A DNA stretch of 64,000 bases from Bacteroidota bacterium. GTDB lineage: Bacteria; Bacteroidota; Ignavibacteria; Ignavibacteriales; Ignavibacteriaceae. The stretch lies in contig JADFLR010000022.1 in the NCBI GenBank assembly GCA_022564295.1, forward strand, positions 1 to 64,000, in the 5' to 3' direction. Every line of letters starts with the position of its first letter. Position 1 is the first letter of the stretch. A program made the position numbers and the translations under genes. The notes below the pieces were generated by a model. The model was not told the origin of the DNA. It worked only from the letters and a program-made list of their open reading frames with translations, and did not search any database. Below, piece by piece: positions 52,871 to 63,784 of this stretch.

Positions 52871-54220
52871 CTATTTCAACAAATAATTTATTGCCGAAGA
52901 AAGATCTGTTATTGGTACGATTGATATTTTATGGTTACGCTTTGATTCCTTCACATTACCGGCAGGAACAATTATTTTTTTAAATCCAAGTTTTTCGGCT
53001 TCCTGAATTCTTTTTTCGATGTTGTTCACATTTCTTATTTCTCCACCTAGCCCAACCTCACCTACGAGTACGGTTTTATTATCGATTGCTTTATCAAATA
53101 AACTCGATGCAATGCTGCAGCATACTGCAAGATCAACAGCAGGTTCAATAATTCGCACACCACCAGCCATATTAACAAATATATTATTTGCAGATACTCT
53201 TATCTTCGCCCTTTTTTCCAGAACAGCCAGAAGTATTGATAAACGTCTTTGATCAAATCCAGTTGTTACCCGCTGAGGATAACCGTAATTGGAAGTAGTT
53301 ACTAGTGCCTGAACTTCCAGCAGAATAGGGCGTGTTCCTTCAATGCTTGAAGTAACAACCGAGCCCGGAGCTTTTCTGTCACTCCCGCTTAAAAATAGTT
53401 CGCTTGGATTTTTAACTTCATGCAAACCATCTTCCCGCATATCAAAAATGCCAATTTCGTTTGTGCTTCCGAATCTGTTTTTCTGTGCGCGCAATATCCT
53501 GAATGAATGATGCGAATCTCCCTCAAACTGAACCACGGTATCAACAATGTGCTCAAGAACTTTTGGTCCGGCTATCATTCCTTCTTTGGTTACGTGTCCG
53601 ATTATTATAACACTAAAATGCTTTCTCTTCGCCTCTTCCATAAGCAGCGATGTACATTCTCTTATTTGTGTTATTGTGCCGGGAGAGTTTTCAAGTTCTG
53701 AACGGTAGGTAGTTTGGATTGAATCGATAACAACCACAGCAGGTGATACATTGTTTATTGCTGCAATGATGTGTCCCAAATCAGTTTCGGGAAAAACAAA
53801 AAAGTTATCGGACTTTAGTTTTAATCTCGATGCCCTAAGTTTAATTTGTCTATCGGATTCCTCGCCAGTAACATAAAGAACTTTTTCATTTATCTGTGCT
53901 GCGGCTTGCATTGCCAGGGTTGATTTTCCGATTCCGGGATCACCAACGAGAAGTATAACAGATCCGGGCATTATTCCGCCGCCTAACACTCTGTCGAATT
54001 CCTTAATCCCTGTTTGTATTCTATCTTCTTTAGCCGCTGTTATTTCATCAAGTTTTGTAACGGTAACTTTTGTTTTAGGAGTTGCAGCTTTTCTTCTCGA
54101 TGTTTCGATCATCTCTTCTGTAAAACTGTTCCAGCTATCACACTCCGGGCATTTACCTATCCATTTTAGTGAATCATATCCGCAGTTTGAACAGATGTAT
54201 TTTATTCTTGTTTTACTCAT
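52871..54220 (-). CDS. radA: DNA repair protein RadA
   Basis: A 449-residue RecA-like ATPase that helps branch migration in recombination repair. The zinc finger is CSNCGYDSLKWIGKCPECDSW-like (C-x2-C, C-x2-C, residues 10-28), Walker A is GDPGIGKST near 95, the RadA motif KNRFGS is near 250, and the Lon-like C-terminal domain has GEVGLGGEIRNV. The length fits. The start codon lies only 6 bases after the stop of the GIY-YIG gene, and a palindrome ends 8 bases before it, so the original upstream region of radA has been replaced or shifted. Confidence 0.96.
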   Translation of the reverse strand: MSKTRIKYICSNCGYDSLKWIGKCPECDSWNSFTEEMIETSRRKAATPKTKVTVTKLDEITAAKEDRIQTGIKEFDRVLGGGIMPGSVILLVGDPGIGKSTLAMQAAAQINEKVLYVTGEESDRQIKLRASRLKLKSDNFFVFPETDLGHIIAAINNVSPAVVVIDSIQTTYRSELENSPGTITQIRECTSLLMEEAKRKHFSVIIIGHVTKEGMIAGPKVLEHIVDTVVQFEGDSHHSFRILRAQKNRFGSTNEIGIFDMREDGLHEVKNPSELFLSGSDRKAPGSVVTSSIEGTRPILLEVQALVTTSNYGYPQRVTTGFDQRRLSILLAVLEKRAKIRVSANNIFVNMAGGVRIIEPAVDLAVCCSIASSLFDKAIDNKTVLVGEVGLGGEIRNVNNIEKRIQEAEKLGFKKIIVPAGNVKESKRNHKISIVPITDLSSAINYLLK

Positions 54221-54225
54221 TGAGT

Positions 54226-54251
54226 GTTACCCTGAACTTGTTTCAGGGTCT
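54226..54251. repeat. inverted palindromic repeat, left copy (family A)
   Basis: ACCCTGAA (54229-54236), loop CTTGT, TTCAGGGT (54242-54249): an 8-bp perfect stem. With its flanks (GTTA and CT) it matches the reverse complement of the copy at 54544-54569. It forms the last codons and the stop of the GIY-YIG gene and sits just before the radA start codon. Confidence 0.85.
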
Positions 54252-54535
54252 GAATTAAAATCTTCTGATAAATCTTTCCAATCAGTATTAATTGATTCTA
54301 TCAGATTTATTTTCCATTCTCTGTGCCAATTCTTCAGTTGTTTTTCTCTATGTATTGCATCCTGCATAATATTAAAAGTCTCGAAATAAATTAAACTCGT
54401 TAAATTATATTTCTTTGTAAAGCCATCTATGAGTTTTTGCTTATGTTCATAAATTCTTCCTTGAAAATCACCGGTTACTCCAATGTACAGAGTTTTTGAT
54501 TTGTTACTTAGAATGTAAACCCAACAATTTTTCAT
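54227..54535 (-). CDS. GIY-YIG nuclease family protein (UPF0213/URI-like)
   Basis: A 102-residue single-domain GIY-YIG endonuclease. It has the two strands WVYILSNKSKTLYIGVTG (V-Y-I and Y-I-G, residues 5-22), the catalytic arginine in FQGRIYEHK, FTKKYNLTSLIYFETF with tyrosine, and the glutamate in AIHREKQLKNWHREWK. All usual catalytic residues are visible. The last residues, DPETSSG and the stop, are encoded by the flanking palindrome at 54226-54251; a second, inverted copy lies 9 bases before the ATG. The frame opens at TTG 54541, but ATG 54535 gives the family start. It lies between alaS and radA, on the same strand, and probably shares their transcript. It may be a small mobile unit. Confidence 0.88.
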   Translation of the reverse strand: MKNCWVYILSNKSKTLYIGVTGDFQGRIYEHKQKLIDGFTKKYNLTSLIYFETFNIMQDAIHREKQLKNWHREWKINLIESINTDWKDLSEDFNSDPETSSG

Positions 54536-54543
54536 AAACAAAC

Positions 54544-54569
54544 AGATTCTGAAACAAGTTCAGAATGAC
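54544..54569. repeat. inverted palindromic repeat, right copy (family A)
   Basis: ATTCTGAA (54546-54553), loop ACAAG, TTCAGAAT (54559-54566). It is the reverse complement of the 54226-54251 copy apart from compensating changes in the stem (CC to TT and GG to AA), so pairing is kept. It lies between the alaS stop and the GIY-YIG start. Confidence 0.85.
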
Positions 54570-54619
54570 CCATATTTAATATTTATTCTTGTCGAAAGTG
54601 TCTAAGTGGTAACATTTCC

Positions 54620-57394
54620 CTATAAAAAGTCACTCACTATCTTTTCCACTTTACCAATTGCAGCAGGAATTTGCTCAATATCTTTTCCGCCGGCTGTTGC
54701 CAAGTGTGGTCTTCCGCCTCCAGCTCCGCCAACAATTTTAGCAAGCTCACCTACTATTTTTCCTGCAGCCAGGTTTTTCTCTTTTATTAAACCATCTGAA
54801 ACAACAGCCACGATACCAACTTTGTCATCTATCTGCGCGACCAATACTCCAACCCCGCGACCCATTCTGTTTCTCATATCATCGCCAAATGATTTCAGTT
54901 CATCCATACTATCAGTAACCACTTTACCTTTATAAATTTTGATTCCTTTTACTTCGGTAGATAATGCCAACAAATGATCGAGCTGCCCGAGATTATCTTT
55001 TAGCCTGAGTTCCGCCACTTCCTTCTCAAGTTTCTTTTTCATATCGAGAAGTTCTTCAATGCGATCATTATGATTATTAACCACATTAAGCTGGTCGGTA
55101 ATATATTTTTCAACACCGCTGCCTGTAACGGCTTCAATTCTTCTAACTCCGCTGGCGATTGATGATTCACTTAAAATTTTAAATAAACCAATTTCGGAAG
55201 AATTGTTAACATGCGTACCGCCGCAAAATTCCAAAGAAAATTCACCAAACTGAACTACGTTAACTTTAGCTCCATACTTATCCCCGAAAAACATTAAAGC
55301 GCCCATCTTCTTTGCTTCATCAAATGGGATATCCCGATGATGTTGTAAAGAGTAATTTCTTCGCAATTCATCATTAACCAATGCTTCAATATCTCGTATC
55401 TCTTCAGAAGCAGGTTTTGCGAAATGAGTAAAATCAAATCGTAAATGATCCGGACCAACATAAGAGCCCGCCTGATGAACATGATCTCCAAGCACTTTTC
55501 TTAAAGCAGCATGAAGAAAGTGAGTAGCGGTATGATTCCGCATAATATCCCATCTCCGTTTGCTGTCAATTTCTGCAATCACTTTTTTACCGTTTGATAT
55601 TAATCCCTCTGTTAAATCTTGTACAATATGGATAGTTTTGTTATCGACTTTTGTAACACCAACCACGTCAAACTTATTCTCATCCATTTGAATTTTTCCG
55701 ATGTCATCAATCTGTCCGCCTGCCTCAACATAAAAAGGTGAGCGGTCTAAAATTATAAGATCCGTCTCTGTCTCTTTTTTATGTCCTATCAGCTTTGCTT
55801 TCGACTTTAATTCATCATAACCGGTAAATTCAGTAGCTTTATCATCAAATAAATCGAAGGAGGAAAGATCGCTAAGAGAAATATTCACCGTAGCAAATTT
55901 ATCTTTCGATGCTTCCCTCGCTCTTGCTTTTTGTTTATCCATTAGCTCGTTAAATTCTTTTTCATCTATCGTAAATCCTTTTTCTTGAGCCATGATGTTT
56001 GTTAAATCAGCAGGGAAGCCATAGGTATCGTAAAGTATAAAAACCTGTTTTCCGTCAATTTGTGGTGACTTTTTAAACAATATTTTTGTATATGTTGGTT
56101 TCCATTCATCCCAATATCTCTCTAAGATAAGTTTTCTATCTTCTTCTGTTGGACTCCATTGCCCCTCTTTAAGCATTTTTATTTCTTCTTTAGACCGTTT
56201 ATATATACTAACCAGTATATCTTTATTTATGTAACAATAATAACTTAAACGGTCGCATTCCAAACGTAGAATATCTAAAGTTATATCATTAAATATTTCA
56301 ATTCCTCTATCAAGCGTTGCATTAAAGCTTTCTTCTTCGGCTTTAATAATTTTTTTCACATAATTTTTTTTATCTTTTATTTCGGGGAACACATCTCCCA
56401 TTGTTTTAACGAGTGTATCAACAAGCTTGTATAGAAAAGGATCATTTAAATTTAATTTTCTGCCGTAGCGTGCTGCTCTTCTTAATATTCTTCTTAAAAC
56501 ATATCCCCTGCCTTCGTTACCCGGTACAGCACCGTCTGCAATGGCAAAAGTAAGAGTGCGAATGTGATCGGTAATTACGCGCATCGGAATTTTATTTTCT
56601 TCAGAATCGTTTTTTATTCCCGACAGCATTACTACTTGTTCAATCAAAGGAGAAAAAACATCAGTATCGTAATTTGATTTTTTATTTTGTAAGAGCGCAC
56701 ACATTCTTTCGAAACCCAATCCTGTATCGATGTGTTTCATCGGAAGATTGTGAAGCTTACCTTTTTCATCTTTATTATATTGAATGAACACAAGGTTCCA
56801 TAGCTCGATGCATTCCGGCACACCGGCATTTACATATTTTGGATTATTATAATCATCCCCGGTATTGATATGAATTTCAGAAGACGGTCCGCACGGTCCC
56901 GTTTCACCCATTTCCCAAAAATTATCTTTTTCACCAAATCGCAAAATATGATTCGGATCAATATCAGTTTCAGTTTTCCATAGCTTGTACGATTCATCAT
57001 CATCATTATAAACCGTTGCCCAAAGGCGTTCTTTTGGCAGTTTCCAAACATCCGTTAATAATTCCCATGCCCAGGTAATGGCTTCTTTTTTATAATAATC
57101 GCCGAAAGACCAGTTACCTAGCATCTCAAAAAAAGTGTGATGGTAAGTATCGTATCCAACTTCTTCAAGGTCGTTATGTTTACCACTAACACGAATACAT
57201 TTTTGTGTATCAGCTGCACGCGAATAATCCCGCTTTCCTTTACCAAGAAATACGTCTTTAAATTGATTCATTCCCGCATTTGTAAATAATAATGTCGGGT
57301 CATCAAATGGCACAACAGGTGCACTCGGCACTATTTTATGTCCTTTTTCCCTAAAAAAACTAAAGAATTGTTCTCTTATTTCCTTTGATGTCAT
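54620..57394 (-). CDS. alaS: alanine-tRNA ligase with an insertion
   Basis: A 924-residue class II synthetase for tRNA-Ala. Motif 1 includes LFTNAGMNQFKDVFLG; the tRNA-recognition part and RRAARYGRKL follow. The editing domain has HTATHFLHAALR, CGGTHV and the zinc-binding histidines, and the C-terminal DHHA1 domain ends GGGRPHLATAGG. Between ESFNATLDRG (about 356-365) and the usual ILYDTYGFP (about 450) lies a segment of about 80 residues where relatives have 25-30, rich in Y, K and E. It looks real, as the frame is clean. The GIY-YIG gene and radA follow on the same strand. Confidence 0.95.
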   Translation of the reverse strand: MTSKEIREQFFSFFREKGHKIVPSAPVVPFDDPTLLFTNAGMNQFKDVFLGKGKRDYSRAADTQKCIRVSGKHNDLEEVGYDTYHHTFFEMLGNWSFGDYYKKEAITWAWELLTDVWKLPKERLWATVYNDDDESYKLWKTETDIDPNHILRFGEKDNFWEMGETGPCGPSSEIHINTGDDYNNPKYVNAGVPECIELWNLVFIQYNKDEKGKLHNLPMKHIDTGLGFERMCALLQNKKSNYDTDVFSPLIEQVVMLSGIKNDSEENKIPMRVITDHIRTLTFAIADGAVPGNEGRGYVLRRILRRAARYGRKLNLNDPFLYKLVDTLVKTMGDVFPEIKDKKNYVKKIIKAEEESFNATLDRGIEIFNDITLDILRLECDRLSYYCYINKDILVSIYKRSKEEIKMLKEGQWSPTEEDRKLILERYWDEWKPTYTKILFKKSPQIDGKQVFILYDTYGFPADLTNIMAQEKGFTIDEKEFNELMDKQKARAREASKDKFATVNISLSDLSSFDLFDDKATEFTGYDELKSKAKLIGHKKETETDLIILDRSPFYVEAGGQIDDIGKIQMDENKFDVVGVTKVDNKTIHIVQDLTEGLISNGKKVIAEIDSKRRWDIMRNHTATHFLHAALRKVLGDHVHQAGSYVGPDHLRFDFTHFAKPASEEIRDIEALVNDELRRNYSLQHHRDIPFDEAKKMGALMFFGDKYGAKVNVVQFGEFSLEFCGGTHVNNSSEIGLFKILSESSIASGVRRIEAVTGSGVEKYITDQLNVVNNHNDRIEELLDMKKKLEKEVAELRLKDNLGQLDHLLALSTEVKGIKIYKGKVVTDSMDELKSFGDDMRNRMGRGVGVLVAQIDDKVGIVAVVSDGLIKEKNLAAGKIVGELAKIVGGAGGGRPHLATAGGKDIEQIPAAIGKVEKIVSDFL

Positions 57395-62671: not shown

Positions 62672-63784
62672 ATGAAGATACTTTATTCCTGTTTATCAAA
62701 AAGCTGGGGTGGAATGGAAATAGTTACAATCAATTCTATTAAACAGCTTTTGGATAGGAATATTTCTGTTGAATTAATATGCACTGCAGAAAGCAGAATC
62801 CATATTGAAGCAAATAATATTGGAATGATCATTTATCCCATAAAAGCCCCTGGTTATTTCCATCCGATTATAACAATTAAAGTTGTTTCAATTATTAAAA
62901 ACGGAAAGTATGATTTAATACATACACATGCTTCAAAGGATTTATGGCTGCTTGTACCGGCACTAAAATTAATCAAAAGCAAAACACCGCTCGTCCTTAC
63001 AAAACATGTTGGATCGTTTATAAAAAAAACAGATAAAATGCATAACTGGCTTTACAGCAGAGTGAACTATGCAATTGCAATCAGTAAAGTTATAAAAGAA
63101 AACCTTCTCGAAACAACAGCGCTTGATGAAAATAGGATTATACTTCATTACAATGGAGTTGATCCTGAAAAATATGATCCCGATAAAATTGACCCGATGA
63201 AGGTTAGAAATGAATTGAATATAAAAGAAGATGAATTATTATTAGGAATGGTTGCAAGGTTCAGCGCAGGAAAAGGGCACGAAAATTTTCTTTTGGTTGC
63301 AAAGGAGTTAAGTACTAAGTATAATGATTTAAAATTTATAATAGTGGGCGAAGCAAGTAAAGGGGAAGATGCTTATGCAAAAGAAATAAAAAATCTTGCT
63401 GATGATTATGGGCTGAACAATATTATCTTTACAGGATTTAGAACCGATATGCCCCAAGTATTATCTGCAATGGATATTTTTATCTTTCCATCGCATGCGG
63501 AAGCATTTGGTGTTGCTCTTGTAGAAGCAATGGCAATGGCTAAACCGTCGGTCTCGACAAGCTCAGACGGTATTCTCGATATAACGGTTGATAATGAAAC
63601 CGGTTACTTGTTTAATAAGGATGATCCGGCAGATTTAAAAAGTAAATTAGAATTATTAATCAATTCACCCGAAAAGAGAAAAACACTTGGAAAAGCTGCG
63701 AGGCAAAGAGTACTTGAACAATTTGATTCGCAAAAACTAATGGATGGTTTGGTTGAATTATACAAGCAATTTATAAAACGTTAG
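62672..63784 (+). CDS. glycosyltransferase family 4
   Basis: A 370-residue GT-B glycosyltransferase. The N-terminal domain has SKSWGGMEIVTINSIKQL and HTHASKDLWLLVPAL; the C-terminal domain has GMVARFSAGKGHENFL, FTGFRTDMPQVLSAMDIFIF, and PSHAEAFGVALVEAMAMAKP with the E-x7-E donor-binding motif. It transfers a sugar from a nucleotide or similar donor to cell-envelope glycan or lipid; the substrate is unknown. It overlaps closely with the SpoIID gene and is followed by another open frame. The codons for KPSVSTSSDGI form a palindrome-like string at 63545-63570. Confidence 0.9.
   Translation: MKILYSCLSKSWGGMEIVTINSIKQLLDRNISVELICTAESRIHIEANNIGMIIYPIKAPGYFHPIITIKVVSIIKNGKYDLIHTHASKDLWLLVPALKLIKSKTPLVLTKHVGSFIKKTDKMHNWLYSRVNYAIAISKVIKENLLETTALDENRIILHYNGVDPEKYDPDKIDPMKVRNELNIKEDELLLGMVARFSAGKGHENFLLVAKELSTKYNDLKFIIVGEASKGEDAYAKEIKNLADDYGLNNIIFTGFRTDMPQVLSAMDIFIFPSHAEAFGVALVEAMAMAKPSVSTSSDGILDITVDNETGYLFNKDDPADLKSKLELLINSPEKRKTLGKAARQRVLEQFDSQKLMDGLVELYKQFIKR
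63545..63570. repeat. possible copy of the family A repeat core inside the glycosyltransferase gene
   Basis: CCGTC (63545-63549) and GACGG (63566-63570) bracket TCTCGACAAGCTCA. On the minus strand it reads CTGAGCTTGT, close to the CTGAACTTGT core of the repeats at 54226 and 54544. The protein length is unchanged compared with the family, so chance resemblance is possible. Confidence 0.3.

Follow-up and report, generated by a model that had tools for sequence, protein, structure and literature searches.

A short GIY-YIG nuclease gene bracketed by inverted GTC-tagged palindromes: a candidate partner of the CGTC repeats

In a Bacteroidota bacterium of the family Ignavibacteriaceae, a small nuclease gene lies on the minus strand between alaS and radA, enclosed by two inverted palindromes. 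The window in which it was found is a stretch of 64,000 nucleotides of a single contig. The locus raises the question of whether the gene and the palindromes form one mobile unit, in the manner of REP repeats and their RAYT transposases, or are found together for another reason. We consider it probable that this is a minimal selfish REP element, in which a single-domain GIY-YIG nuclease takes the place of a RAYT in the spacer of inverted hairpins tagged with GTC (CGTC or TGTC). The features of the locus are:

54544..54569, minus strand: upstream GTC-tagged palindrome (GTC, 8-bp stem, 5-nt loop, CT tail)
54227..54535, minus strand: single-domain GIY-YIG nuclease gene, 102 aa, with an ATG start and a TAA stop within the downstream palindrome
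54226..54251, plus strand: downstream palindrome, inverted, with the degenerate tag GTT, encoding the C-terminal residues and stop of the GIY-YIG protein

Read on the gene strand, the upstream palindrome is GTC-ATTCTGAACTTGTTTCAGAAT-CT; read on the plus strand, the downstream one is GTT-ACCCTGAACTTGTTTCAGGGT-CT. The first-pass annotation had described two mutually inverted 26-base palindromes, and these are present, with two stem differences (T-A versus C-G, twice) that preserve pairing. Its statement that one palindrome encodes the last residues and the stop of the protein also holds (DPETSSG*, TAA at 54227). The distance from the upstream 26-mer to the ATG, given as 9 bases, is 8. A hairpin had been placed 8 bases ahead of the radA ATG, which is right for the hairpin proper; three of those bases are tag, and with the tag counted the palindrome stops 5 bases short of the radA start codon. 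In a search of the genome with covariance model R1, which has both window palindromes among its 35 model sequences, the upstream palindrome scored 42.7 bits (E=5.3e-8; the 27-mer model match is 54543-54569) and the downstream one 35.5 bits (E=6.5e-6).

The related core reported at 63545-63570 belongs to another repeat type and is therefore no third copy. It is an imperfect CCGTC..GACGG palindrome with a AGCTTGTCGAG core, by reading within a coding frame, perhaps as an in-frame insertion. Adjoining the GIY unit at 54598-54613 is GTGTCTAAGTGGTAAC, which resembles one of the inverted-repeat ends flanking a PDDEXK_3 ORF at alaS-radA of relatives and, judging by this resemblance, is possibly the remnant of an earlier element. 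A known structured RNA at 53900-54900 was considered and rejected, as the sole Rfam match is far under the gathering score (18.2 versus 88). PADLOC, PHROGs and NCBIfam models gave no match, so a defence or phage label is unsupported.

Pfam analysis of the 102-aa protein detects a single domain, PF01541 (54.6 bits, residues 4-77, above the cut-off), and no second family. The catalytic domain of the GIY-YIG superfamily has conserved Tyr, Tyr, Arg, His, Glu and Asn residues. In this clade Y7, Y17, G19, R27, H31, E64 and N83 are invariant in 58 of 58 homologues, and we take these residues to include the catalytic set. The dN/dS ratio was 0.063-0.142 in five of the ten pairs tried (of the remainder, one pair was identical, two were saturated and two had no called ORF), and such low values indicate that the gene has been kept working.

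The AlphaFold2 model has a pLDDT of 88.4, with low confidence at the last residues. The nearest solved folds are UPF0213 (1zg2; Z 7.3, rmsd 5.3, 81 aligned) and Slx1 (7cq3; Z 6.7, rmsd 3.0, 94 aligned), but identity in the structural alignments is low, at 24% and 21%. These are followed by the catalytic domains of I-TevI (Z 5.6, rmsd 2.6, 70 aligned) and UvrC (Z 5.4). The Z values of the predicted model are middling, and a common fold is no proof of a common function. A sequence search of solved structures returned only a weak UPF0213 match (E 0.059). Slx1 acts on branched DNA; we know of no repeats surrounding UPF0213 or Slx1 genes.

The repeat is not confined to the window. Across its own genome (G000, 4.07 Mb in 59 contigs) the 15-base core has 54 matches at up to 2 mismatches versus 5 for a reversed control pattern, which rules out chance; ten sites are exact, the two copies in the window included. 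A genome-wide search, which the first-pass annotation had suggested, found further copies, with 49 matches at E<=1 to a covariance model built from palindromes adjoining GIY genes. Adjacent matches no more than 120 bp apart form 14 convergent pairs with no gene between them (gaps of 4-23 bases), no divergent pair and one tandem pair. Two more convergent pairs enclose a GIY gene, one in the window and the other on contig C47. Nine GIY-YIG domain matches are found in this genome, two of them within long frames (607 and 570 codons). Among the seven short GIY genes, those of the window (C8) and C47 are closely bracketed by the GTC palindrome, and several others adjoin different repeats. The doublets on C21 and C13 have an identical spacer and palindrome pair, with differing bases displayed outside.

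This arrangement is similar to that of REP/RAYT systems (REPtrons) and REPINs, in which a gene also lies within inverted palindromes, gene-less inverted doublets are dispersed and the repeat sometimes provides the stop codon. The gene-less doublets are best read, by this analogy, as putative non-autonomous relatives of the GIY unit, as REPINs are of RAYTs. However, the enzyme is a GIY-YIG protein (PF01541 being its only Pfam domain) rather than an HUH tyrosine transposase, and the tag is GTC here and GTAG there.

Two further observations concern the shape of these repeats. The degenerate REP doublets at C12:30083, C13:255685 and C21:39015 have a common spacer and by eye are also alike outside the tags (GAGTCTGTTGCA..-like ends), as if they were nested in a larger inverted-repeat element, to judge from the sequence. 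At alaS-radA of two relatives, a CCTGCCTG..CAGGCAGG-type palindrome is found inside the loop of the REP palindrome, and a similar case is present elsewhere in the window's own genome (L151, L160 and L020 in all).

The bracketing was then assessed across bacteria. A scan of genome contigs with four proteins of the clade gave 549 confirmed loci, of which the best 80 were taken; 76 were usable, four being dropped because a flank ran beyond the contig end. A tagged hairpin was defined as GTC with a stem of 7 bp or more immediately after it, closed by a small loop, and the controls were 927 mechanical ORFs of at least 120 aa from the same loci, which are not curated genes. A convergent pair of tagged hairpins surrounds the gene at 33/76 GIY loci and at 0/927 control ORFs. 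Forward-sense hairpins upstream were found at 43 of the 76 (controls 13/927), and any tagged hairpin at 61 (controls 46/927). The first-pass annotation had asked whether GIY-YIG homologues end at a repeat copy more often than chance; they do, as a reverse hairpin lies downstream at 49/76 loci versus 14/927 controls. Hairpins of the opposite sense are rarer (16/76 upstream, 16/76 downstream, 7/76 on both sides). The pairing that the first-pass annotation likened to REP/RAYT, with a nuclease of another family, is thus shown statistically over many phyla and with controls: 47 of the 68 tree proteins have a named phylum, with 18 phyla represented.

The geometry of the unit is tight. The start codon lies a median of 22 bases beyond the upstream palindrome (n=45); between the stop codon and the downstream palindrome the median distance is 5 bases (n=52), and in 20 of 52 cases the two overlap. 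The ORF is 88-112 aa long in 69/80 loci; a figure of 17/80 broken ORFs is an overcall, some matches extending beyond the true stop. Among hairpins preselected by the rule demanding GTC and a stem, the palindrome is 21 nt long in 64/97, 20 nt in 29/97, 23 nt in 3/97 and 22 nt in 1/97, and the tail is C, then mostly C or T. The base preceding GTC, which the search motif itself requires, is T in 34/45 and C in 9/45 upstream palindromes, and T in 36/52 and C in 12/52 downstream ones. When candidates were selected by tag and tail only, which fixes just the first stem pair, at least 6 of 8 stem pairs formed in 125/136 near GIY genes versus 63/187 far from them; pairing near the gene is therefore not a mere artefact of selecting pairs. 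The stems differ by swaps such as C-G, T-A and G-C at one position. In 15 of 32 long named loci the palindrome core beside the gene is found again at a distance of over 800 bp, versus a mean of 5.6 and a maximum of 12 in 2000 shuffles.

A second sample consisted of 30 alphaproteobacterial loci, matches having been found in 26 of 76 genomes; it was weaker and in the same direction: any hairpin at 15/30 loci versus 4/27 control ORFs, and a convergent pair at 7/30 versus 0/27. By eye and post hoc, about eight of the 15 misses still have GTCA-tagged inverted elements with imperfect stems. An identical tag 8-mer occurs inverted on both sides of 22/76 GIY genes versus 6/960 control ORFs, and of 12/30 versus 0/21 in the alphaproteobacterial set, in a test that is blind to units with two differing palindromes; the corresponding counts are 3/29 for PDDEXK_3 and 1/14 for DUF559 genes. 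The tag 8-mer is shared in direct orientation at 31/76 GIY loci. A general inverted-match score discriminates less (GIY 56/76 inverted, 47/76 direct, 25% with cross-paired flanks). Homologues lacking flanking repeats and sitting at conserved positions had been named as one outcome that would speak against a nuclease-repeat pairing, and an absence of further repeat copies as the other; neither occurred in full. Most of the homologues examined are flanked; some units do share a position in related genera, with a common downstream sequence in L085 and L091 and a common upstream sequence in L091 and L128.

It could be argued that palindromic repeats merely gather in the lax flanks of any small laterally moved gene, so that their presence here is coincidence or hitch-hiking. 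In its favour, the strict rule detects no tagged hairpin at 15/76 GIY loci, and repeats also surround other small nuclease genes; against it, none of the control ORFs is bracketed, and the small, often intergenic nuclease genes of the same phylum have repeats of their own that are not of the CGTC type. Convergent CGTC-type hairpins were found at 0/29 PDDEXK_3 genes and 0/14 single-domain DUF559 genes of the phylum, and at 0/22 of the best GIY-YIG genes of relatives, which by reading are mostly of other clades (the denominators are those loci of 30, 16 and 29, respectively, that did not run off the contig). Among the families tested, the repeat therefore goes with one GIY-YIG clade, whose consensus includes KNWxRxWKIxLIExxNPxWxDL. 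Barring a larger sample, this control contradicts hitch-hiking for this clade, and we give that explanation hardly any credence.

The other nuclease families show flanking repeats of several kinds. PDDEXK_3 genes (L285-L314, PF13366) are flanked by inverted, mostly non-palindromic repeats such as AACCACAGAGGNCACAGAG (match of at least 12: inverted 21/29, direct 8/29, cross-paired flanks 7%), and L150 and L155 are PF13366 genes at alaS-radA in relatives of the window genome. DUF559 genes lie between CCCTCTCC..GGAGAGGG-type palindromes (L282 at sufB-sufC of Sphingomonas parapaucimobilis, L318, L322, L323, L325, L331, L335, L336, L338); an inverted match of at least 12 was found in 11/14 single-domain loci and a direct match likewise in 11/14, as palindromes match both ways, with 6% for cross-paired flanks. 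At 14/29 loci the GIY domain is no more than 180 bp from a tRNA gene. In the GIY-YIG clade that directly adjoins tRNA genes (L043, L047, L051, L052, L055, L056, L057, L061, L062, L065, L066, L067) a second, partial copy of the tRNA 3' end is present, which by eye is in many cases attached to a palindrome of the TCCCGA..TCGGGA type. L366 and L367 are tandem arrays of five units next to tRNA-Asp (period 315, 99% matches) and tRNA-Leu (period 450). The GIY clade with KGWSRxKKEALI (L001 = G000:C49, L040, L049, L063) adjoins another GTC-tagged repeat with an imperfect stem, of the types GTCATCCTxAGCTTGTCGAAGGAT and CTGAGCGxAGTCGAAG.

At the level of whole genomes, repeat and nuclease also occur together. 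Among 118 genomes of the phylum, a GIY match is present in 37/43 with the repeat versus 26/75 without it, in 22/23 with at least 10 repeats versus 41/95 others, and, at a stricter clade cut-off of E<=1e-23 counted by hand, in 32/43 versus 18/75; the lineages are non-independent, repeats were counted among at most 64 scored candidates in each genome, and it is mainly the form with a 5-nt loop that the model captures. By this mainly 5-nt-loop model, 26 genomes have a GIY match and no repeat. G150, a relative within the phylum (2.2 Mb, one contig), gave 13 matches to the repeat and none to GIY-YIG at the cut-off applied; its repeats may have outlived their enzyme, and the single 20-kb stretch of it that was inspected contained none.

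GIY identity correlates with palindrome similarity, to a modest degree (rho 0.198; maximum of 1000 null replicates 0.151; 0.184 against 0.175 for pairs below 60% identity). Palindrome length requires 13 changes on the GIY tree versus a minimum of 17 in 400 shuffles. Phylum requires 21 changes (null minimum 26 in 300 shuffles, vertical minimum 17); the tree thus tracks phylum better than chance, which indicates that transfer between phyla has been limited.

Within-genome copies were compared in 22 pairs, and the ends were read for the four pairs more than 82% alike. In pairs alike enough to read, the limits of the unit coincide with the tags to within 0-6 bases. In G187, L345 and L346 are 83% alike over 355 bp, with a likeness that spans the GTC tag to GACAT between unrelated flanks; that of L345 and L348 runs from 6 bases outside the tag to GACAT. 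The pair L346/L348 is uninformative on ends, as its likeness exceeds the unit and begins at contig ends. In the two copies of G039 (88% over 722 bp) the likeness extends from TGTC as far as GACAGA. No target-site duplication was seen by eye in the within-genome copy pairs, which offer few precise events, and an all-against-all BLAST of the 80 loci was too noisy to define unit ends. G037 contains a tandem array of three units, and decayed GIY copies bearing stops also occur.

Three junctions are found both with and without the unit. At trpB-trpA of Aquimarina, 30 loci were read from 52 genomes: nine have a GIY unit, one has another gene and 20 have no GIY, two of these 20 retaining one palindrome, single or fused. 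The nine units belong, by reading, to two GIY clades with distinct palindromes. Azospirillum lipoferum 4B has at sufB-sufC a unit flanked on either side by a doublet, with one imperfect doublet member. A. ramasamyi, A. oryzae and B510 (identity over aligned pieces 96.0, 95.6 and 94.8%) lack it, with gaps of 91, 87 and 129 bases in which no GTC-tagged hairpin was found by rule or eye; Shinella has a different unit there. At alaS-radA, the empty site in a close relative that the first-pass annotation had proposed to look for exists in two congeners, G004 and G005, again with no GTC-tagged hairpin at the junction by rule or eye. G001, also a congener, lacks a GIY ORF there and has a palindrome pair, possibly a decayed GIY unit, with only short matches (16 and 27 bases); G018 has a doublet. 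Inverted repeats of the TTACCACT type enclose another gene or its remains in G002 (a congener) and in G016 and G023 (same family); in G002 and G016 the ORF is PDDEXK_3. The within-genome copies alike from tag to tag, together with the three junctions occupied in some genomes and empty in others, show that the unit moves and indicate that the whole tag-to-tag unit is the mobile piece.

Movement also bears on whether the gene has a housekeeping role in the host, as a domesticated resolver of extruded palindromes, the flanking palindromes acting as terminators or in self-regulation. Purifying selection, the Slx1-like predicted fold and the tight spacing of the palindromes to start and stop would all fit such a role, but the gene is patchy, with presence in 63/118 genomes and up to 9 matches per genome. 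Patchiness and copy number, like the tandem arrays, the insertions between operon genes, the decayed copies with stops and the copies alike from tag to tag, are marks of a selfish element. We regard the housekeeping explanation as quite improbable.

The main rival to the REP-element reading is that the gene is a homing parasite: the palindromes would spread by other means, and the GIY-YIG nuclease would cut a resident doublet, into whose spacer repair would copy the gene. Free-standing homing endonucleases of the I-TevI/Seg kind have the GIY-YIG fold, that of the I-TevI catalytic domain being common to our model, and their genes are likewise present or absent at a fixed junction; our gene differs from theirs in that no separate DNA-binding domain was found in the 102 aa, that it is bracketed by hairpin repeats of its own and that there are many insertion sites. 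In favour of homing, the gene occupies the position of a doublet spacer; the palindrome pair of G001 and the doublet of G018 at alaS-radA, the two GIY clades at trpB-trpA and the different units of Azospirillum and Shinella at sufB-sufC count on the same side. Against it, repeat-rich genomes nearly always have a GIY match, and PMC3733652, as far as it is drawn on here, found no enzyme for the CGTC repeats. Further, the nearest empty sites (A. ramasamyi, A. oryzae, B510, G004, G005) are free of GTC-tagged hairpins, so the occupied sites were not clearly doublets at the start. We judge homing to be rather unlikely, though worth serious attention, and the REP-element reading to fit better.

The palindromes correspond to a repeat family already described. 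CGTC REPs have a CGTC or TGTC tag, a stem of 8-9 bp starting with AT, a loop of 4-5 and a short tail, and frequently form dimers (Di Nocera, De Gregorio and Rocco 2013, PMC3733652); the GIY palindromes have these features of tag, stem, loop and tail as given there. In the parts of that paper used here, CGTC-tagged palindromes are known from five phyla, "apparently lack a dedicated transposase" and have no associated enzyme gene reported. S. meliloti, N. aromaticivorans, A. lipoferum and Neisseria, which the same parts name for CGTC repeats, also carry the GIY unit. Dimers described there as head-to-head predominate; the doublets in the window's own genome are convergent, with tags outside. Its intragenic analysis, as described in these parts, excluded REPs inside hypothetical proteins of less than 120 aa, so genes of about 100 aa annotated as hypothetical would be missed. 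One short GIY-YIG gene is annotated 'excinuclease ABC subunit C'.

Ten loci from a plasmid collection were examined by rule up to 450 bp from the gene, and seven have convergent CGTC-type hairpins. These are the loci of N. aromaticivorans, Rhizobium CIAT894, Sphingobium, Aeromonas and Shinella, together with those of A. lipoferum and N. gonorrhoeae, where it is the outer palindromes of the flanking doublets that converge. In S. meliloti the gene is flanked by palindromes upstream and downstream, the downstream tag containing one additional base; over the same distance the rule detects no tagged hairpin in Planktothrix and R. tumorigenes (L244, L277). The Neisseria CGTC-1 repeats are equated with dRS3 in the same source (PMC3733652, in part), and the N. 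gonorrhoeae GIY gene has CGTC-ATTCCCGC..GCGGGAAT palindromes on both sides, as doublets. Relative to the start these lie at -220 (forward) and -137 (reverse) upstream, and at 276 and 350 (forward) and 434 (reverse) downstream; the nearest palindromes thus aim their tags at the gene, and the convergent bracket is formed by the outer copies only. In a search of open-access literature, which excluded bioRxiv preprints and many subscription papers, no paper was found linking GIY-YIG with extragenic palindromic repeats or dRS3.

These correspondences suggest that the GIY-YIG clade is the missing partner of a widespread CGTC repeat family thought to have none. We infer that the nuclease cuts the palindromes and that it spreads or maintains the repeats. 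Tag and loop would guide its recognition of the palindrome in hairpin or cruciform form, and the enzyme, whose predicted fold is nearest to UPF0213 and Slx1, would cut near the tag. Double-strand-break repair or replication by the host could then copy or move the cut unit or a gene-less doublet. To our knowledge no GIY-YIG enzyme joins ends alone, so host repair must do the joining.

More tentatively, the unit could be one member of a whole class of minimal selfish elements, each a single-domain nuclease with a private hairpin or inverted repeat and no transposase, spread by cutting and host repair, and the source of several common short interspersed repeats. Besides the one GIY-YIG clade and its CGTC palindromes, the proposed members would be further GIY-YIG clades paired with tRNA 3' fragments or different repeats, PDDEXK_3 (GxxExxY-like) nucleases paired with inverted repeats of the ACCACAGAG type, and DUF559 nucleases paired with palindromes of the CCCTCTCC..GGAGAGGG type. 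We find such a class possible, at somewhat less than an even chance.

The mobiliser of CGTC palindromes was left open in the parts of PMC3733652 considered here, and an enzyme of about 100 residues is now a candidate; with a specific enzyme named, the question can be tested at the bench. If the REP-element reading is true, REP-like elements arose at least two times with unrelated enzymes, an HUH transposase and a GIY-YIG nuclease, and a nuclease without end-joining activity sustains a repeat family via host repair. It would also explain the very short GIY-YIG genes found between operon genes such as trpB-trpA and sufB-sufC.
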